From contig BBXU01002456.1 of NCBI GenBank assembly GCA_001598975.1, positions 1-64,000 on the forward strand: 64,000 nt of DNA, in the 5' to 3' direction. Of the stretch, positions 9,869-41,285 are shown piece by piece. Origin of the DNA: Parachlorella kessleri. Taxonomy: Eukaryota > Chlorophyta > Trebouxiophyceae > Chlorellales > Chlorellaceae. Under the pieces are notes generated by a model. That model was given only the letters and a program-made list of their open reading frames with translations. It searched no databases and was not told where the DNA came from. Both the position numbers and the translations under genes were made by a program. How positions within the stretch are numbered: position 1 is the first letter of the stretch; each line of letters begins with the position of its first letter.

Positions 9869-9960
9869 TCAGACCCAGGCCATCCAGCCCTCAAACATGC
9901 GAGCTAGGTTGGCCTCACTCATGCTGGCCCCTATGAGCCTATCAACCAACTCCTCAACCC
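9869..9960 (-). other. SMG1: FATC domain of SMG1 (last coding segment)
   Basis: The last ~30 codons ([20 protein letters not shown], then MFEGWMAWV and stop) match the C-terminus of SMG1-type PIKKs, which end in a GWxAWV motif. This identifies SMG1 rather than TOR, ATM or ATR. Confidence 0.9.
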
Positions 9961-12900
9961 CCACCTCGCTACCACTACTCCCACCAGCAGTCCCCTCGCT
10001 GCCGCCAGCCTCCTTTCCTGTCGGCTGCCGCACTTGCTGCAAGGTCTCACTGGCACTACTAGCACGGCTGCCTACGGCGTCCCTCCTGGCTGCAGCGCCT
10101 GCAGCCACGCTCGGCCGCCAGGTGCCCCTCAGCTTGGCCCTAAAAGTAGCCACCACCGAGGCCGCATATGATGTGGCAGCTTCCCTACTCCTTCTCGCGG
10201 CGCTGGCTGCCCCCTGCTGCCCGCCCGCCCCAGCACCTAAGAGTGCTGGCAGGCCAACGGTGAGGGCCAACGAGGCTGCACTACTGCCATTGCCGGCATG
10301 CCACGGCAGCTGCTCTTCTGGCCTCTTGTTGTTGGCGGTGGCAGGGGAAGCGGCTCGCATCCCGTCCTCCGGTAGGCCAAGAGAAGCTGCTGGCAGGCCA
10401 AGGAGTGATGGCAGGCCCTCCAGGGGCTGCTGCAGGCTGTGTTCCTGGGCCAGCCGAGCGGCCTGCTGCGCCGCCTGCTGCGCTAGGGAGCCCAGCATGG
10501 AGGGCAGCGTGCCCAGCAGGGCACCGGCAGCTGGCAGGCCCTCCACCTGCATGAGCAGCAAGCAGTGCATCACTTGGCTGCGACCTGACTTGTCAAGCCA
10601 GAAATTTGGTGCAATACCTATCGCACGCATGTATGATACTCCGTCGCGACACAAGTGTAGACAACAGCGCATACTGCAGCGCGCTGTGGGGCTTACATGT
10701 GGCAGCTTCCACTTCCATGCATTAACAACAAAGATGTAGTCCTGCCAAGCTCGGCAGGGTGAGGAAGCCCTCGCTACAATTATTTCCCCACCTGTGGCTG
10801 CAGCTGCTCTATAGCATCCCTCATTGCCGTCACCAGCTCAACAGCCGTTTGTCTGGCAGCCGCCTCCCCCTTGCCTTTCTTCTGCAGCACAGCTCCGTGG
10901 GCCGCATTCAGGGCTTGCTGTACCGCGCGCACTGCCCCAGGCAGGCTCCCCATGCAACCCAGCGCGCGCAGCAGCTCCTGAGATGCCTCCTGGCACCGCC
11001 GTTGCAGCCCCTGCTGCTGCGTCTGCTGTGCGCGCTGCGCCCGACGCAGCATGGTACACAGCGTAAAGGCCTGCCGCTGCGCCTGCTGCAGGACGGCGGT
11101 GTGGGCTGAGAGGCCATCGAGCTGGGGGACAACCGCTCGGAGACCTTGCACCAGCTGCAGAGTGGCCTTGATGAGGGGCAGGGCCAAGGAGCCCAGCTCG
11201 ACCTCGGCCTCTGCAGTCTTTGCCTGCAGCTCAGGCACAAAAACACCAAAAAACCCTTTCTACAGCACCAAGCACAAGACCTACCCGAAAACGCAAAAAG
11301 ACACTCTGTTGGTTTCGTTCTGACGGCGCCAAGCCCCCCAAATGAGGGCACTCCCCTAATGGCAGCGAAATGGATATAGAGGCGTTTGCTGGACGTTGTC
11401 TTCGGTGCAACGCAATGACAGGACGGACGCATATGCTGTGCCAGAGGGGCAGCACACAACTCCTGTCCGGAGACATGTCTCACCTGTGCTGACTGCATGA
11501 TAGCCAGGGCCTCCATCCTGCGCTGATGCACCCCTGCCAGCTCGCGGTTGGCAGCTGTGGTTATGTCATCAGCTGCCATGTAAGACTGGTGGAGCCCCTG
11601 CATCTGCCGCAGCACTGCCTCGAACTGCTGCCAGCTGCTGTGCTGTGCCTGCTGTGCTGCTGCGTCAGAGCTTGCCTGCTGTTCTTGACCTCCCTCGAAG
11701 GACGAGAGCTCCGTTCGCGAGTTTTCAAAACTTAGGACTGCTTGTGCCAGCTGGACGAGGGCGGCGGAGTAACCAGCAGTGGAAGACAGCCAGTGCTGCT
11801 GAGAGCCGAGCAGACCCTGTAAAGGCACGCACAGCATTCGAACCTCAGCCATTGTCATTCTGTATAAAGAGAGACCAGGGATGCTACCCTGCCATGAAGG
11901 GATGACCTAAAGGCTTCCATGTGGCTGCCTTTGCAAGCACCGGCACGATCGGCGCAGGTGGCAGGCAAGGCATTGGAAGCGGTAGCAGAATGTAGCAGAA
12001 CAGGCATACGCAGGCAACAGAGGCTTGCAACAGGGGTTTTTGGGCACATGGCCTCAACCCCTGCACCCTTTCTCACACATCCCACACAAATGAAGCCCAG
12101 AAGTGCTGGCCGGAGCGGAATAACTCTATGCTATGCTAGAAGCCTTTTCAGCGCAAGAGCAGCATGACAGCTGCGGTTGCACCGTCCGGCTGCAGCGTTG
12201 GCCAGCCAGCCAACATGCCCACCTTAAGCCCAGGCAGCGCAAAGAGCATCACAGCCGCCACCTCACTCTCCAGCTGCTGCCCCTGCTGTGCCAGGCTGGC
12301 CTGCCACCGCTGCAGCTGCTGGTCTAGCCCTGCCAGCTGTGTGGCTGAGGTCTGCATAGCATGCAGCAGCGTGCTGCGGCGGGACCGAAGCACCCAGCGG
12401 GACACAAGTGGGTGAACCTGCAAGGTATGGGGAGCAAAAGTGGCAGCTAGGAGTGGACTATGATGGCAAGGGTGCCGGCAGGCGGCCAGTGAACCTAGCT
12501 GGCAACGCGTCTGCGAAGAAGGGACGGGGAACGCTTTGGCGCAGCAGGGGTTCCCAGAGGAAAAATGGAAGAGGAGAAGCCCTTGAAGGAGGAGCCCGTG
12601 AAAGATACACAGCAGCTTTGATAGATACCAGAAGGCCCCCTCTCAGCTCTCGAGGTGAAGGCTGTGAAACCACTTAGTGGGTTGCTTGCCGTCATAGTGC
12701 CAGAGCACTGATGCTGCTGCCACGCGCTTGCCAGCATCCTTTGCTTCTTGCAATTGGTGGTCTGCATGTAGCCAGCCGAGACCCACTAAACCCACTCACC
12801 AGGCTTGCATCCCCAAGCACCTCAGCCGTGATGCCACTGGGCTTCGCCCAGCTGCCAAGCTGGCCTGGGGCCACTCCCTGCGCCAGCAGGGACCCCTCAT

Positions 12901-24900: not shown

Positions 24901-27900
24901 GCGCAGGCTGCGTAAGCACCTTGTAGCAGAAGGGAGGCCGTAAGTGCTGGCTGGCTGCTGCCCAACAATCGACTGCCGCCGCCGCCAATGTTAAGGAGCG
25001 CTGTTAAGGGAGCCACATCTGGCACAGCGGGCGTATCTGTTGGCTTTTCTGGCAAGGAATGGAAGGCGGCCCAGGGAGCAGTTTGCAGCAGGCTCGCCGA
25101 AAATGGCCCAGGCTGCCATGCTGTGACCAGTAAGCCTGCCGTAGCTAGCTTAGCACCCTCTCTGCTCTCATCTTCACTGGCAGCACCCGCAGTAGCCAGC
25201 GACGCTAGGGACGCTGCAGACCCAGCTAGCAGCTGGGGGTCGGCCAGGCCCCCGCCCATGCCCTGCACTAGCTGCGCCTGCAGCAGGACAGCCTGTACTG
25301 CCCCATGTATTGCATGGCTAGCCTCGGTGGACCCCTCCTTAAGCGCCTCAGAGCCGCTGCCTGCTTGGCTGGCGCTCCCTGTCTGCCTCCCCGCTGCAGC
25401 CTGCTGCATAACAAGTGCTCTTAACGTCGCGCTCTGGAGTGCCTGAGCAGATGCAAGGGCGCCCTGCAGGAGCCCCTGGGGCCCGGTAGCGGCCCTGCCT
25501 GCTATGCTGGCCGCGGTTGGCGCGCTCAGCTGAGCCAGATGCTGTTGGGCTGCACCAGTGTCGCCAGTTGCCCAGCTGGCCAGCGCAAGGTGGTGAGCTG
25601 ACTGGGGCGCACGTTGACTTGAGGGATGGTTCTCATCCTGTAGCCAGCAGGATGCCTGCTAATGATAAGATGCATGGCCACGTGCAGGAATTTCAAAGCA
25701 GGTTACCCGCCAAAAGTTTGGAGCGTTCATATGACGGACAGACAAGGGCTACATGTCCAACACTTGCAACGCAACAAGCCAGGCTCCATATCTGTGACGA
25801 ACGTGCCCAAAAGGGGGGCGAGAAGTGCAGGGGCTTCATACCATCATACACAAAGACCTCTTCACCACCTGTAATGCAGCACACCTACAGCAACCAGGGT
25901 ACCATCACCCACCTGCAGCCAGGCTTGCATGCTGTCCCAGTCCTGCACTGCGGCATATGCGTCCGCCGTCAGAGTGCCCACGAGCTCCTTGATGGGCCCT
26001 GGCACCCGACTGCCCAGCTGGGTGATGCTGTACTTCCGCAGGGCTGCCTCGTACCGCCCTGCTGCATGGAGCTGTACTGCTTCTAGCCAGTCCCAGGCAA
26101 TCTCCGCAAACGAGGACCCAGGCTCCCTGGTGCCTTGCTCAGTATGGCGTAGCCTAGCGCTCTCAGCCTTGCTCTGGTGCATGCCTCCCTGCTCCACATC
26201 CTGGAACTGCTGCTCTTCCTGCTGTTCCTGCTTTGCAGGCTGTCGCTCCTGCTGCTGCGAGCCTGCTAGCCTGGGTAGGTGCCTTGCTGCCTCACCCCGG
26301 TCGCCTGTAGCTACCATGTGGAGTGTACTGAAAGGGCTTGGCCGGCCCTGAGCTGCGACAGGCGCCTCTGTATCATGGAGCACCCGCCACAGGGGACCAA
26401 AGGCGGACGTGCAGTAAGACTGGAGCTCTGCAACGCCATCTGGGTCTCTCAGCAAGCAAAGCGCCCTGGCCATGACAGCTGTCACGTAGCCGACGCGCTG
26501 CCACAGCTGTTGGGCTTGCACCATGTGCCGCGGCAGGGAGGCCCGACCGGCGCCCAGCCTGCTCTGTGACAGCAGGCCGGAGGCAGAGGCGGCCTGGGGT
26601 ATGCCCGGCAGCGCTCTAAGGCTGGGAGGCTCCAGAGGCGGATTTCTGCCTTCCCCTGCTTCTGCTGCCGGCTGTCTAACTGCTGCTGCTGCGGCGGCGG
26701 CTCCCGCCCCTGATGTTTGACCGATTGCAACCAGCGACGGCAGTCTGAGAGCAGCCAATGCCCCTGTCGATGCCGGCATGCCAACCAAGCCGATGTGCTT
26801 TGGCGACTGTCCAGAGCCGGCCGCAGACAACGCCACGCCCACGCCTGGGGAGGGCTGCAGGGCGGCTGCTGCAGCGGCCAGCTGCCGGCCTTGCAGCTCC
26901 AGCTGGCGAAGGCGCATATAACCCAGGCGTAGGGTTAGTGGGTGATGCTGCATGGAGGCGGCGGCCCTCAAGGCCAGTGGGCATAGCCGGGCAAACCAGT
27001 CCTGGCACACCTACAGGCATCAGATCCAACCCACAAAGACCGACTCAATTTGGGACAAGCCAGAAAATGAGCAAATCCTCTCAACTCTAACCACCTGTCC
27101 AGTGGTGTACCAGCACTCAGTGGGCCTGGCTACGGGGGCAGGCTCAGTTCAAGCTCATGTCCTTCACCCGCTGCAACCCATTTGCATTCTGTGAACCGTC
27201 CCACAAAATACAAATCCTGCAGCAGTACGCCGTTTGGTATGGTGACTTCATAACACACAGTGCCTTATTTTGTTTTCCCTTGAAACCTACCTTCTTGTTG
27301 CCTGCAAAAAAGGCTAGGGCCCCTGCCTGGGCAGCAGGCCTTCCAACGCTGCCTTCGTAAGCGTTGAAAACTCCCTGCTCCAGTGAATGGAGGAACTCCA
27401 AGAAAAGCCAACTGGGCAGCAGGTGATTGGCAGCACTGGCCTTCTCAACTGCATGCCCTGCAGACAAGCCCGTGAAAGTCAGTTCTAGGAACACCCAATG
27501 CTGCTTCAAACCACACACTCCAAAGTTCAGAAAGGGTAAAGATTTTATGTCTATGTCAGCTTTCTCTTCATGAATGAGCGACATTAAGCAGAGCGTAGGT
27601 TTGATGCATACACACCAGCGGCCAGCCTCTGCAGCCCCTGTTCCAAAGCCGCCAGGGTCTGTGCGGGCCCGCCAAAGTGTGTTTTGAGCCGAGCAGCCAC
27701 AAACTGCCGTGCCGCCTCATGCACAACAAAGGTTGCAGCCGGAACAAGCGCGGTGAGGTCCCTGCGCACAACAAAGCCCCTCATGGGCGACATGATCTGG
27801 CCAGATGCCAGCCCAAACTTCAAGTGGACTGAGGCATACCGTTGAGGCGTTTTCCGTCAAGGAAACCATTCCAGCGCTCTCTGCCGCTTGCATGCATGAG

Positions 27901-34609: not shown

Positions 34610-35368
34610 GGCAAGGCCTCAAGGGGCTGCGGTGGCGGCGGCTCCTCCCCCGGAGACCAGGAAATAAGCTCTTTCCTGTACTTGCAACTGTGCGCCTCAG
34701 AACAGCTGCCAGTGATGTGAGATTCATCACAGACAGGGAGCCCAGAAGGATGGAGCAAGCACATAACAGCTCACCTCAAAGCTTAGCCACATATACAAAC
34801 AGCGGCTTTGGCGCCGGCTTGTCTGCGCCCGGCTTCCTGCCTCCACACCACAATCCTAGTACAGAACATAATCGGTAAGCTCACTGGAGCATAGGGCAAG
34901 TCTGCATACAAGAAGGGGAAATGGCGTGTTGTTATGGCGTGTTGCTTAAGTGAGCACGCAGCAGCCTCCAAGGCGCCAGGAGTGCGCCTAGGGTGCAAAC
35001 CCACCTGGGGCCCGGTCTCTGTCTCGCAAGTAAACTCGCTCTCCAAATGAGTCCTTCAGTGCTCACCAGATCAGCCAACAAGTAGAGCAAACAAAACACT
35101 CTTCGTGGCGCAGGTGCCTTCGAGTCATGCACGTTTCATCAACCTTGTCAGACTTTTCACTACCTTAATCCTTACAGTACTTGATGGCTGGGAGGGAAAT
35201 ATCGATATGGCCTTGCTTCACCTGTATCTACCTAAGGCATTAGTCATAGGGGAGTCTCAGGAAGGACAGGAACTCTTACCTGCGTGCATTCCTGCGAAAA
35301 CCCGATTGCAGATTTTAAAAACACTAAATAGACTGAGGCGCAAGCGACTCTGAGACCTTTTTTGAGCC
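34610..35368. promoter_or_regulatory. Divergent promoter region between SMG1 and the P4H-GlcNAc-transferase gene
   Basis: The two start codons point away from each other, 759 bp apart, so both promoters and 5' leaders lie here. No conserved box was recognised, and no open frame in it shows a conserved motif. Confidence 0.6.
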
Positions 35369-38300
35369 ATGGATAGGTTGCCTGACCACATCAAGTCCAA
35401 AATCTTGTCACACCTGTTCCAACCGAAGCCACCAGCTGCTGCCTCCATTCCTGCCAACTCAGGCGTCCAGCAACCGGTCGCCTGCCTAGGCAAACTGCAA
35501 GGCTCGAGCATAACCCAGGGCCCCACTGTAATAGACGGCTTCTTGCACCCAGGATGCCTCCAGGTAGACTGCAGCCAGCTGAAAGACCCTGTTGTGTGCA
35601 GCAGCCTTGGGGGTCCCAGAAAGTGCATTTACAGCGGCAGAGTTACCTTTCTGAGTGGCTTAGCCGGAGAACAGCTCTACACCCGTAGAGTGGGGGGAAG
35701 GGTGCCGTACCTGCTGTGTTATACGTTGGGCTTCTGGTTCCCCCGCTACTGTGCCTAAAAGATGCTACTGCACACCGACGCACACGCCTGAGGGTCTGGG
35801 ATTTCGTTCACTGCTATCCTCCTTCCATGCATATTGATGGCAGCATATTGATGGCAGCGCAGGAAGTGCTGTCTGAGGCCAAACAGTTGGTTGACGAAAA
35901 GGCACGGCCGGCAGGCATGGGCGGCGCGGTCGCGGAAAGCAAGTGGCGAGATTTCCAGGTGGGCCACCTGCCTGCTGCATTGTTCGAGACCTGCGATGTG
36001 CCTAGGCAACTGGGCTCGGAGCAAACCACTGCGCTGGGGCTGCCTCCCGCACAGCCCTTCTCACCCTGGGACCATGGTACCCCCGTGTAGCAGGGTGTCC
36101 CTGCTTGAGTCTTCGGTAGAGTTGCCCTCAGACGCTCCCTGCCATGCACTGCTGAAGGCGCGAGGCGACACCACTGTGTTCCTGCACCCCGACCGCCTTG
36201 CCGCCTCAGGCTGCCCAGCACTCGCCTCCTTCCTGGCATCCACGATTGCTCAGCTGCAGCCCTGGCTGGCAGGCCAGGGCTACGATGTGGGCGGGCGCCC
36301 CACGTGCCAGCTAGGGTGCTATCCTGGTGGAGGCGCTAGATATGTGAGGCACCGCGACGCAAGCCTGACCTGCTCATACCGCACAGTTACGGCGATGGTG
36401 TACTTGAACCCGGGTGAGTGCCAGACCGTGGGCAGAGCTTGGACACAACCAGGGGACAGTCACAACTGTGGGTGGATTGTGGGGTGTGCTAGGTGTGTGA
36501 TGACCAAGCGTGGAGGCACGGCGCCCTGCTGGCTGGCTGGGTTGCCTCCTGGTTGGCATTGATCGGCCAGTATGGGATGTTTGCAGGCCCTCTTGTGTGC
36601 GTTGACGCACCGGCGGTGATATCAGGGCTGCTTGGGATAAGACGGATCTGCGGCCAGCAGTGTGTGTGCGTGTGTGTGTCTGTGTTCCTCTGGTTGTGGT
36701 TTTGCTGCGCGACATCTGCTGGCATTACTGCACCGCCCCAACCTTTGTTGCACTGGGGTGCAGGCTGGAGACCAGACCATGGGGGCGAGCTGTGTGTCTA
36801 CCACCTTCATACCTCGCCTCCTACAGAGCTTGCTGATCCAGCTCCTCCAGTGCTCCCGCAGAGACGCTGCTCAGAACTAGACGTAGCAAGGGCAGCAGCA
36901 GAGAGCACAACAGAGCATGTGCCAGCAGGGCAAGGCACATCAACTGACGCAGGCGGGGAGGGCAGCGCCACAGCAGCTGGAGCAGCAGTAAAAGAAGCAA
37001 CCGCATCACCAGGATTCAGAATAGAAGAAAAGGCAGAAGAAGCAGCAAGGAAAGCTGCAGCGCTCGTGAACAGTGGCCTGGAAGAAGGTCACGCTGCCTT
37101 GGTTGTGCCGCCCGTGGCAGGCAGGCTGGTGGTGTTTGACAGCCGTACAGAGCATGAGGTCTTGCCCAGCTATGCTCCCCGCTACGCTCTGGCTATCTGG
37201 TTCACCAGGGCCGAAGCCAGCGCATGCGGGGACCAGCAGCGGGAGGTGGTGCAAAGCGGGCAGTGTCAGCAGGATAGGCAGCCACTGGCAGGTGAGCCTG
37301 TACCTTCCCCATCGCAACCGGTCCCCATCACATCACCTCAGCAACATGGTCAGGCGGCTTATGTGGGGATGGAAGAGGATGTGAGGCGGCAGCAGCAGGA
37401 GGAGCAGCAGCAGGGGGTTGACGAGGCTCAGCCAGCAATGGGTGGCAGGTTCCCTGCGGGCTGCGAGATCCCTCCAGTGGATCCTCAGAAGCTTCCTGCA
37501 CTAGACACTGAGAGCATCGCCCGGCCTGGTCACATCTTTGTTTCCATTGCCAGCTACAGGGACAGTGAGACGCAGGCACGTAGCTACTGATGCTGAGCTG
37601 GGCAGTGGGTTGGCCTGGCAGCGACGTGGGTGCCTCCCTGCAATGTGAATACTGAAAGGGGTGTGGTCCTGTCTGGCAGGGCTGCCCGCCTCCACAGTCG
37701 TGTGCACCTTATTAGCATGGGTGGCAGGTAGTGCAAACAGGAAGTGAGAGCTGGGCTGGACTGACGTGCACCGCATAATGTAAGATATAAGGTGCTGTCC
37801 TGCATGGAAGGATGGCTGGCAAGTGCAGGCTATGTAGCCCTCCGGTTTTGCTTGCGGCCCCCATGCCAGGGTTGTGAAGGCTGGACAGGGTAGTTTACTA
37901 GGTGCCGCGGTGACCAATTTGCTTTCTACTGCAGTGGACGCTGCTAGACTTATTTGAGAAGGCAGCGCAGCCCTCCCTGCTGCGGGTGGGGGTGGGGTGG
38001 CAGGTGGACTGGGCCAGGGATGCCGGCTTTGTGAGGATCGCGCCTGGAGGCGAGGCCTGGCTTCCACAGGTGCTTGGGTTTGTTAGGTGGCATGAAGTGC
38101 GCTTCCTGAAAGCTACTGAAACCCCTGAAGCTGACAGGGCGGCTGGAGAGGTGCACTGAAGCGGTTGCTTACATGTTGGAGGGTGAACGCTGTGCTATCG
38201 TGTGCCAGCGTGCATGTGAGGGAGCAGGCAAGGCCGAGGCAGGTCCCACAGTGCTGAGGGGGGCCGGACCAGGGGCCATGGTTGAGACTGAATGTTGCCC

Positions 38301-40452
38301 AGGGTTTGGTCTGGCCACATGCCCTGCCGGAACAGATGGCACGTTGCGTGTCACGGGTGAAGCTGCCCATTGGGGTGAGGAAATGCCACGGATGCTAGTT
38401 GGGGTACTGTGCTTGGAGAGTGAGTGTGAGTCTCCCTGCCCTGCAGTCTTCTCGCAGGTGCGCCAGGTGATTGTCAGCAGCGAGGAGGCTACCGGGCCCT
38501 GCAAGGCCCGGGCGCTGGCCCAGCAGCTGTGGGACGGAGAGGAGTTTTATCTGCAGGCATGTGGGAAGTGTGCACGCCGTGTATCTGAGGAAGTAAAGTT
38601 GTGGCGGGTGGCGGCATCTTTAGAGTGGGTATGCGGGTTGTTGTTGGCAAAAGATACAGGGTACTTTCTGCAGTCTAGTGGAGGTTTTGATGCTGCAGTG
38701 CAGATGCCAAAGCCAGACGACTTGGTGTAAGACGAAGTAGGTCTGGGGGTGAAAGTAGCCACAGAAAAGGTTTGTGAGGCTGCCTGTAACCTGCATTACG
38801 ATGCTACATCCCATGCTGCCAATGCAGGTAGACTCTCACATGCGCTTTGTGCAAGGCTGGGACACCCTGCTGCTGGGCATGCTGCGCCAGGCGGAGCAGC
38901 AAGCGCAGCATGCACGGGTCGTGCTTTCCACGTACCCGCCAGGCTACCAGGTCTGTGACGCGGGCGGAGGGCTTGAATCAGGGTGCGTGGTGACAGCGGG
39001 CTGCTGCTCTGCAGCTCAGCCCCGGGCTGCTAGTATTGTGGGTAGGCCTGTAATGGCCGCTGCTGGCCATGTCAAGGAAACAATTGGTAAGCTGGGGCCA
39101 CAGGGCGGCGAGAGGAAGCCATATGGGGTTTCTTTTGTGAGGCAAGTATAATCTTCACCTCACCCTGGCGCCAGATGTGGGCCTGGGGGGGGTGGAGCTC
39201 CATCTGGAATCGTTATCACTTCTTTCTTGACGTCGTACCCACCCCATAAAGCTGGTCAGTTGGCAATATAAGAGCTACCCACCACACAGCTGGCAAGGTG
39301 ATGTGCAGGGGCAGGGACTGCAGGCCACCCTCCCTCGTCAACCCCCCCTCACCGTGCTGTGCGCCACACACTTTGATGCTGATGGCATGTTGCGCACCAA
39401 GGGCCGGGCGCTGCGCTCCCCGCCCGCCGCACCCTTGCCGGCGCTCTTCTGGGCTGCTGGCTTCTCTTTCAGCAGGGCGCAGCTCCTGCAGGAGGTAGGG
39501 TGCTGGTTGGCCCCCTGACAGCCCGCCCGGGTGTGCGTGCACCAGTGTTCTTCTGAACCTGTGCATCGTGATATCAAATCGGAGAACTCAAGGCGAGCTG
39601 CTGCTCCAGCTGGAGAAACCCCTGCAGGCCCCCCATGTCCCATCATCTCGTGAAGCATGCATGAGGTTTCCTGATCCGCGGCATGCACCCCATGCCCTGC
39701 ATAAGTTGTTGCAGGTGCCATACGACCCCTCCCTGGGCTTTCTGTTTTTCGGGGAGGAGATGTACCAGCTGGTACGCATGTGGCGCCAGGGTTGGGACGT
39801 GTTCACCCCCTGCTGCCCCGTGGTCTTCCACCTGTGGAGCCGAGCACACCGCCCCACATTCCAGCGGGACAACCTTCCTGCTGCGGGCGCTAGCGCCAGC
39901 AGTGTCGGCAGGAGCAGCAAGGAGCAGGGCGGACATGTCGTGTGCGATGCTGCACGAGCTGTTGCTGCCGGTGGGAATGGCATCGCTTCTGGGGGCCCAG
40001 CAGAACCTGTCGCAGGGACGGCAGCAGCAGTAGCCAGGGAGCAGACACTTGACCAAGAAGGTTCCCCAGGCGCCTCATCAACAGCAGCACTCCAACAGCG
40101 TAAAAGATCACAGCAAGTGGTGCTGCGAGCGCTGGGGCGACGGGAGCTCCCATGCGCCTCCACAGGGCAGCAGCCGCAGCTCGCGGCCATCCCAGTTTTA
40201 GAGAAGGGGCCTTCAGGTCCGCCCCTGGTGACCAGAGCAGCGACAGCAGTAGAGACGCCAGCACCAGCGCCAGCGTCGGCCAGCGGCTGCCAGGGGACTC
40301 AGGCGGCCAGACTCCGCAGCTTGGAGCAGTTTTACGAGTACTGCGGGGTGGACTTTGCTGCTGGCATTGTTGGGGAGAGGGCGCGGTGGGGTGGTTTGTC
40401 TCCTGACCACTTTGCTGCGTCCTGGCAGGACTTGCTCCCTGCTCAAGCCTAG
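35369..40452 (+). CDS. Bifunctional prolyl 4-hydroxylase / hydroxyproline GlcNAc-transferase (PhyA-Gnt1-like fusion)
   Basis: Exons: 35369-35563, 35863-35958, 36158-36413, 36764-37575, 37935-38069, 38458-38556, 38828-38950, 39324-39494, 39715-40452 (TAG), 874 aa. Residues ~50-330 form a 2-oxoglutarate/Fe(II) prolyl hydroxylase of the EGLN/PhyA type: VIDGFL, CQLGCYPGGGARYVRHRDAS with iron ligands H162 and D164, then H313 (TEHEVLP) and 2-oxoglutarate Arg322 (APRYALAIWF), nine residues apart as in human PHD2. An Ala/Glu-rich insert (~205-290) splits the two halves. Residues ~436-874 form a GlcNAc-type glycosyltransferase: GHIFVSIASYRDSETQ, LFEKAAQPSLLRVGVGWQ, DSHMRFVQGWD (metal site D533-S-H535), LFWAAGFSFS, FLFFGEEMYQLVRMWRQGWD, LRSLEQFYEYCGVDF. 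Known relatives act in cytosol/nucleus on Skp1. Residues 4-17 (LPDHIKSKILSHLF) look like the first F-box helix. Introns 4 and 6 have GC donors. No signal peptide seen. Confidence 0.9.
35831..35858 (+). repeat. 14-bp tandem duplication at the 3' end of intron 1
   Basis: ATATTGATGGCAGC is repeated twice head to tail just before the exon 2 acceptor (AG at 35861-35862), giving several nearby AG choices (GGCAG, GCGCAG). The last one keeps the hydroxylase frame. Confidence 0.75.
36659..36684 (+). repeat. TG-rich microsatellite in intron 3 of the P4H-GlcNAc-transferase gene
   Basis: GTGTGTGTGCGTGTGTGTGT, intronic. Confidence 0.8.
37716..37775 (-). repeat. Dispersed repeat, copy in P4H-GlcNAc-transferase intron 4
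   Basis: Its reverse complement (TCAGTCCAGCCCAGCTCTCA and on to CACTACCTGCCACCCATGCT) closely matches the copy at 40737-40797, extending through the CCCATGCTAA end. Confidence 0.75.
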
Positions 40453-41285
40453 GCATGCTGCACCCTTGCTTCCTGCTCTGGCATAGGCATGCTGCGTCCT
40501 TCCCCCGTGGGCTAGCTGAGGAACAAGGCACACCCGCCAAATAGTATGTATAGGAGGCAAGATGTATGTGGACATACTGCTGACGTCAGTAGCTCTGAAA
40601 AGGAGCACCCCACCAGGTTCAAATGCCGCCAAGGCTACTTCGCCAACCCCTGCCAGCCCAATATACCCGTCCCTCCTTTCTGAGCGCATTACCTGTCACC
40701 CTCAGGCAAGACTCAGGCTCATTCTGCATCCAGCCCTGTCAGTCCAGTCCAGCCCAGCTCTACTTCCTGTTCGCACTACCTGTCACCCATGCTAAACTTT
40801 AGCATGCGAAGACTCCTGAAGACTACTTCGCCAAGGCTGGCTCCTCACCGGGAATACCCATCTCCAGAGGCAGACCTGGCAAACAGGTGCTGTGGTACAG
40901 CAGGCCTGGAGGCAAGTGCTCGCAGGGAGGCTTTGACTGTCAAAACCAGTGAGTGGCCAGGGCGCCCTTGAGAGCCGCTAGTCTCAAGTGTCAAGCAATG
41001 CTGATAGGGACCAAGATGCACCCAGCCGCCAGTCTGTCGTGCAAACGCCAGGAAGGACTACAGCATCCCTGGACCGACCTCAAATCTCTATTGGGTACAC
41101 TGCAGGACCTGCAAGCTTCGTCAGATGACCGTGACATGGGGCCCACCTTGCAAGTCCCTGCGCCTGCCAGCTTGGACGCCAGCGCGGCAAGAAGCTGCCC
41201 AGAAAGCCCAGTCATCTCGTCTCAAACCCTTCCGCCGCACCCTTGTTGATATTCCAAGGCCATTACAGGACGTACTGCATTAAAC
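40453..41285 (+). other. Intergenic region with two adjacent dispersed-repeat copies
   Basis: No exon supported. Copies of the dispersed repeat lie at 40651-40701 and 40737-40797. The string GGTTCAAATGCC at about 40616 vaguely resembles a pol III B box. The promoter of the next gene should lie in the right part. Confidence 0.5.
40651..40797 (+). repeat. Two tandemly placed dispersed-repeat copies
   Basis: Copy 1 (CCAGCCCAATATACCCGTCC, ending ACCTGTCACCC) and copy 2 (TCAGTCCAGTCCAGCCCAGC, ending ACCTGTCACCCATGC) are ~85 bp apart and belong to two recognisable sub-types also found at 33181 and 37716. Confidence 0.75.

Follow-up and report, generated by a model that had tools for sequence, protein, structure and literature searches.

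The first 64,000 nucleotides of contig BBXU01002456.1 of the Parachlorella kessleri assembly (hereafter the window) carry a forward-strand gene at 35369..40452, which raises the question of whether one green algal protein could both hydroxylate a proline and cap it with N-acetylglucosamine (GlcNAc), and on which target it would act. A preliminary description, made from the nucleotide sequence, had proposed that a prolyl hydroxylase of the PHD type is joined here to a hydroxyproline GlcNAc-transferase, forming a compact oxygen-sensing enzyme for Skp1. Our analysis confirms the observation of a joined gene and partly supports the interpretation placed on it.

One open frame carries both enzymes

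Rebuilt from the window DNA, the nine exons yield exactly the uninterrupted frame first described, of 879 amino acids, whose parts are listed below with their supporting evidence.

35369..40452, + strand: whole gene, PHD-type prolyl hydroxylase followed by a GT60 GlcNAc-transferase, 879 amino acids (spliced frame, Pfam)
35369..35563, + strand: exon 1, N-terminus MDRLPDHIKSKILSHL and first part of the hydroxylase domain (spliced frame, Pfam)
35863..35958, + strand: exon 2, hydroxylase (spliced frame; recovered in the whole-protein search of the assembly)
36158..36413, + strand: exon 3, core of the hydroxylase, including the iron ligands H162 and D164 (spliced frame, PHD alignments)
36764..37575, + strand: exon 4, last part of the hydroxylase (H313, R322, W328), then the linker and the beginning of GT60 (IFVSIASYRD) (open frame)
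37576..37934, + strand: intron 4, GC donor and AG acceptor, with TGTAA at 37779
37935..38069, + strand: exon 5, GT60 (spliced frame)
38458..38556, + strand: exon 6, GT60, followed by a GC donor (spliced frame)
38828..38950, + strand: exon 7, GT60 with the DSH motif (D533, H535) (spliced frame, profile match, GT60 alignment)
39309..39494, + strand: exon 8, GT60, with three equivalent in-frame starts (39309, 39315 and 39324)
39715..40452, + strand: exon 9, GT60 with FFGEE, the C-terminal LEQFYEYCGVDF motif, an insert of about 145 residues rich in Ala, Gly and Ser, and the stop codon

The start region reads GAGCCATGG, with an in-frame TGA two codons upstream of the ATG. In the numbering of the spliced protein, the residues and motifs originally pointed out fall at H162, D164, H313 and R322 in the hydroxylase, and at 440 (IFVSIASYRD), 533 (DSH) and 845 (GVDF) in the transferase.

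The junction between the two halves lies inside exon 4. A single 365-codon open frame containing this exon runs from the end of the hydroxylase through the first strand of GT60, taking in the second iron-binding histidine, the 2-oxoglutarate arginine and a Gln/Pro-rich linker on the way. No stop-free run of this length appeared in 300 dinucleotide shuffles of the gene, the longest shuffled run being 343 codons, and the linker has a GC content by codon position (0.80, 0.47, 0.64) similar to that of the other exons. Because exon 4 alone bridges both enzymes, the fusion does not depend on splicing, and cDNA across introns 4-5, which the preliminary description had put forward as a check, is therefore less crucial than it held. 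As sequence, the fused frame is close to certain, and we reject two separate genes at this level, both enzyme parts being present within exon 4.

We infer a single transcript carrying both domains. The same continuous frame could still yield a separate hydroxylase and a separate transferase if, for example, transcripts ended in intron 4, an arrangement that we regard as quite improbable. TGTAA serves as an algal poly(A) signal; the nearest copy downstream of the stop codon lies at 914 bases, a distance that counts against the main reading, and another copy is the one inside intron 4. The open frame also continues past the GC donor of that intron, whose retention would lead to a stop at 37588-37590. 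Against such a division, the linker lies within the single open frame of exon 4, an exon that contains no TGTAA, and a product ending in intron 4 would still carry the start of GT60, leaving the transferase without its first strand.

The hydroxylase half resembles HIF-type prolyl hydroxylases

The first half scores 57.4 bits against the Pfam profile PF13640 (2OG-FeII_Oxy_3; cut-off 27), and it has the 2OG-Fe(II) fold with the HxD...H iron ligands H162, D164 and H313. The 2-oxoglutarate anchor is an arginine rather than a lysine, R322, placed nine residues past the second histidine. This spacing, which had been likened to that of human PHD2, is found in the human PHD/EGLN chains as well. In a search of the PDB with the hydroxylase core, prolyl hydroxylases of the hypoxia-inducible factor (HIF) type came first, followed at lower rank by the Pseudomonas PHD and chain 6t8m, which we take to be PhyA of Dictyostelium. 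The collagen-type algal chains 2jig and 3gze were not among the matches with E-values up to 1, and we rejected a collagen-type identity on this ground. Judged by these matches, the algal domain is nearer to PHDs than to prolyl 4-hydroxylases (P4Hs) of the collagen or plant type.

At the extreme N-terminus, the residues MDRLPDHIKSKILSHL (35369-35425) resemble the first helix of an F-box, a curious feature in a putative Skp1-acting enzyme. The match to the Pfam F-box profile covers positions 1-18 of 47 with an E-value of 0.3 and 11.3 bits, below the cut-off of 24.3, and no PDB chain matched this segment at E-values up to 10. A true F-box is therefore not supported.

The GT60 half is the only member of its family found in the assembly

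The second half matches the GT60 profile PF11397 with an E-value of 1.9e-65 and 222 bits (cut-off 21), in two stretches, the better of which covers profile positions 98-351 of 352. The joining of a PHD-type hydroxylase to a GT60 GlcNAc-transferase, as first proposed, is thus borne out by Pfam for both halves and by PDB matches for the hydroxylase; a PDB search with the GT60 part returned one match, at chance level (E 0.86). When the algal domain was aligned with four GT60 domains of a bacterial protein (locus L022, described below), 47 columns were identical in all five sequences, including D533 and H535 of the DxH motif, E649 and H673, so that residues of the catalytic type agree between the algal and the bacterial GT60. 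Past about residue 690, where the insert starts, the alignment breaks down, and the identities at R700, D712, G723 and E731 are probably due to chance.

We searched the whole assembly, 50.9 Mb in 1642 contigs, for further copies. All three PF11397 matches belong to the fused gene. Similarly, a search with the whole protein gave 10 matches, namely the nine exons of the fused gene and one weak match (E 0.026) on contig C476. PF13640 was found in six places, one of them the fused gene, which is accordingly the only GT60 gene seen in the assembly, yet not the only PHD-like gene. Viral contigs scanned with the GT60 piece contained no relative.

The contig belongs to a green-lineage genome

Nuclear and plastid markers were used to examine the source of the DNA. 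The RuBisCO large subunit gave no match in the assembly, from which the plastid genome seems to be absent, and the nuclear gene for the small subunit (RbcS) was therefore used as the green-lineage marker. It gave five matches, and the one tested (L025) had a PDB list led by chloroplast RbcS chains, including 1gk8, which is presumably that of Chlamydomonas. Together with the Skp1 matches described below, these results agree with the green algal host that had been named for the gene.

The contig of the fused gene is linked to this assembly by a dispersed repeat of about 95 bases (40701-40796, no strand assigned), which lies about 250 bases past the stop codon and is not a working part of the gene. 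A first look gave 1315 candidate places for it; at least 58 matches are listed, 57 of them on other contigs, and this distribution ties the contig to the assembly. The idea that the contig is foreign, derived from an oomycete or some other protist in which the fusion is already present, would find some encouragement in the fact that the known P4H/GlcNAc-transferase fusion comes from an oomycete, and no gene on the contig has been assigned to a lineage. We nevertheless consider a foreign contig very improbable, given the shared repeat and the GC-AG introns common to the fused gene and the plant-type Skp1 gene of the same assembly; moreover, the contig is 199 kb long and has no N in window positions 35001-41000.

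Some bacterial GT60 proteins pair with oxygenases, in different ways

A scan of genome contigs revealed two relatives, both in metagenome-assembled genomes labelled Alphaproteobacteria. Broader searches gave GT60 matches in 6 of 385 genomes of the class group and in 28 of the 398 phylum-group genomes, with genomes G001 and G038 present in both. From these matches 32 bacterial loci were taken, 30 of which gave 31 open reading frames (ORFs) bearing GT60, all scanned with Pfam; L075 and L076 gave none, and the count omits L023 (scanned as a 250-residue piece), L043, L044 and those matches whose loci were not retrieved.

A 2OG oxygenase accompanies GT60 in three of the 31 proteins. One is the protein at L072:490-3114 (minus strand, proteobacterial genome G681), where an 875-residue frame holds a P4H, GT60 and a tubulin-tyrosine-ligase-like domain. 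As in the alga, a proline-hydroxylase-like domain precedes GT60 in one chain; unlike in the alga, this hydroxylase is of the collagen or plant type by its PDB matches, with 2jig and 3gze first, and the ligase-like domain is additional. In the other two, GT60 likewise shares a chain with a 2OG oxygenase, which is placed behind GT60, in contrast to the algal order: L022:53-7327 (plus strand) encodes 2425 amino acids with four GT60 domains followed by 2OG domains, and L041:613-2430 (minus strand) has GT60 and then an oxygenase scoring 24.6 against the Pfam cut-off of 27. The similarity of these two oxygenases to the algal PHD is weak, the best E-value being 4.8e-7 (L022).

A more frequent companion is a methyltransferase-like stretch after GT60, found in 22 of the 31 ORFs at E-values up to 0.01, mostly under the cut-off, a count that spans loci L051-L078 (the 28 loci of the phylum-group search) and includes L042 from outside this range. 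This bacterial architecture is unlike the eukaryotic one. In a tree of the algal and 34 bacterial GT60 domains, a 25-row group with support of 100/98 contains no oxygenase-bearing domain, while the L072 domain joins repeats 2 and 3 of L022 (96/87), with which it may share ancestry.

The differing hydroxylase types and domain orders suggest that the pairing of a hydroxylase with GT60 arose more than once. The bacterial P4H-GT60 protein suggests that the making and the capping of hydroxyproline may have become coupled more than once in evolution; if so, GT60 would serve as a marker for hidden hydroxyproline sites.

Skp1 as the candidate substrate

We predict that the fused protein hydroxylates a single proline and afterwards adds GlcNAc to the same residue. 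Its target is probably Skp1, as suggested by comparison with PhyA and Gnt1 in Dictyostelium and Toxoplasma and with the Pythium dual enzyme. The PHD-type, 2-oxoglutarate-dependent domain would act first and the GT60 domain second, and the fusion could channel Skp1 from one step to the other. As hydroxylation would use up O2 and 2-oxoglutarate, the amount of capped Skp1 would be governed by oxygen, and the level of capping might in turn tune the loading of F-box proteins onto SCF ubiquitin ligases. The choice of Skp1 as substrate draws on the known pathway and not on the alga's own data.

A Skp1 gene is present on contig C484. Its first residues were not placed, and its C-terminal end keeps the target proline (TPEEEEEV), as the preliminary description had proposed to verify. 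The closest PDB match is SKP1-like protein 1A, which we take to be the Arabidopsis protein. A second Skp1-like exon, at the end of contig C957 (L008, minus strand), reads DDLTEEEK when translated by eye, with E replacing the target proline; pieces of this exon are repeated close by in the surrounding DNA.

Several results weigh against assigning the fused enzyme to Skp1. From NDF onward, the plant Skp1 chain ends in the same letters as the algal one, and no such modification of the Skp1 proline is known in plants. Because land-plant Skp1 shares this C-terminus, the presence of the proline says little about modification. No later enzyme of the pathway was identified in a search aimed at GT8, PgtA not having been searched for; GT8 gave two fragment matches in the assembly, neither of them Gat1-like by PDB search. 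The alga is also unplaced in the GT60 tree, where its long branch arises from an open fork, and we therefore claim no origin for its GT60 domain.

A further result of this kind concerns contig C476, on which a second PHD-like exon (L017, about 25109-25267, minus strand) reads SIIYLNPDWRPGNGGELRLYPF and matches PF13640 with an E-value of 2.6e-7. Its PDB list begins with 6iuq, followed by 6t8m (E 4e-7), above the EGLN chains (about 2e-5). In the fused domain this ranking is reversed, with the EGLN chains above 6t8m. The stand-alone gene on C476 could thus be the real PhyA counterpart, and its exon counts against a confident Skp1 assignment.

A possible though clearly less likely reading is that the fused enzyme acts on another cytosolic protein, with Skp1 modified by the stand-alone PHD on C476 or by no enzyme at all. 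This fits the C476 exon and the conservation of the proline in a plant chain for which we know of no such enzyme, and PHD-type enzymes do modify other proteins, such as EF-Tu in Pseudomonas, according to the available part of PMC6235002. Two points favor Skp1 instead: the fused gene is the sole GT60 gene found, and Skp1 is the only partner described for the pair of PHD-type hydroxylase and GT60 in the available passages of PMC8724618, PMC3515798 and related literature.

We therefore retain Skp1 as the probable target. A bolder version, to which we give little credence, would see a one-piece green-lineage oxygen sensor that grips Skp1 through a minimal F-box-like helix (MDRLPDHIKSKILSHL) and both hydroxylates and GlcNAc-caps it before release, the hydroxylase and GT60 being a recurrent module joined more than once.

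Splice sites and neighborhood

Six of the eight introns are GT-AG, and introns 4 and 6 are GC-AG. The GC donors are no warning sign, given that one of the four introns in the assembly's Skp1 gene has a GC donor as well. A GT-AG alternative for intron 6 (donor 38561, acceptor end 38831), picked manually from the site list, was rejected since it loses D533, a residue identical across the five aligned GT60 domains. Of all the splice sites, the AAG acceptor of exon 3 (intron 2) is the weakest, with many other in-frame joins possible; the join adopted here recovers the RGD motif of the PHD alignments and was preferred for that reason. GC content by codon position is odd (0.73, 0.62, 0.36) in the insert at residues about 204-290, and a further small intron may conceivably lie within this part of exon 4. 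These uncertainties, at the exon 3 acceptor, the exon 8 start and the exon 4 insert, leave the fusion claim untouched.

Among 20 neighboring ORFs scanned for domains, the sole domain above the cut-off was FATC (E 7.5e-10), at the end of a minus-strand ORF at window positions 9872-10837. Long minus-strand ORFs upstream of it, to about 32400, possibly form one very large PIKK-type kinase gene together with it.

Comparison with known systems

The HIF prolyl hydroxylases, such as EGLN1/PHD2 and the Trichoplax PHD, share with the algal domain the HxD...H ligands, the arginine nine residues on, and the CYPG and RGD motifs, and they are its best PDB matches. They differ in having no GT60 partner and in their known substrate, HIF, whereas the algal domain is interrupted by an insert about 87 residues long. 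A functional parallel is offered by PhyA and Gnt1 in Dictyostelium and Toxoplasma, since a PHD-type hydroxylase and a hydroxyproline GlcNAc-transferase act in turn on Skp1, as stated in the available portions of PMC3515798, PMC8724618 and PMC9485057. There, however, they are separate genes, named as separate mutants in the accessible text of PMC3515798, and the algal domain matches the EGLN chains better than it does the PhyA chain 6t8m.

The implied lack of precedent for the fusion does not hold. A dual-function P4H/GlcNAc-transferase of Pythium ultimum was reported in 2019, as judged from its title, cited in PMC8724618, and the latter source, in its available part, describes the fusion of odd-even enzyme pairs of the Skp1 pathway as frequent in protists. 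By that title, the Pythium enzyme has both activities on Skp1 in one protein; the organism is an oomycete and not a green alga. The alga has in common with this kind both domains in one polypeptide frame and a target-proline Skp1 in the genome, the latter a weak trait common to plants. Among the titles and abstract openings of the literature searched, which lies mostly outside subscription papers, none describes this fusion in a green alga or a bacterial P4H-GT60 fusion. The algal gene is thus not unprecedented; it is a green-lineage representative of already known fused enzymes.

The distribution of GT60 in green algae has been described in different ways. The available text of PMC8724618 places GT60 genes in diatoms, oomycetes and algae, and that of PMC3515798 names Chlamydomonas among the genomes with Skp1-modification-like genes, while a survey from 2013 that covered the glycosyltransferases of green and red algae, as far as its accessible part goes (PMC3797821), has GT60 in prasinophytes only. 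A clean single-copy gene makes this question, PMC3797821 versus PMC3515798, testable. If the fused enzyme does act on Skp1, the green lineage too would operate the oxygen-to-ubiquitin-ligase switch known from amoebae, Toxoplasma and an oomycete, in contrast to land plants, which, according to the available part of PMC13223302, sense oxygen by N-Cys dioxygenases, yet have the same Skp1 C-terminus.

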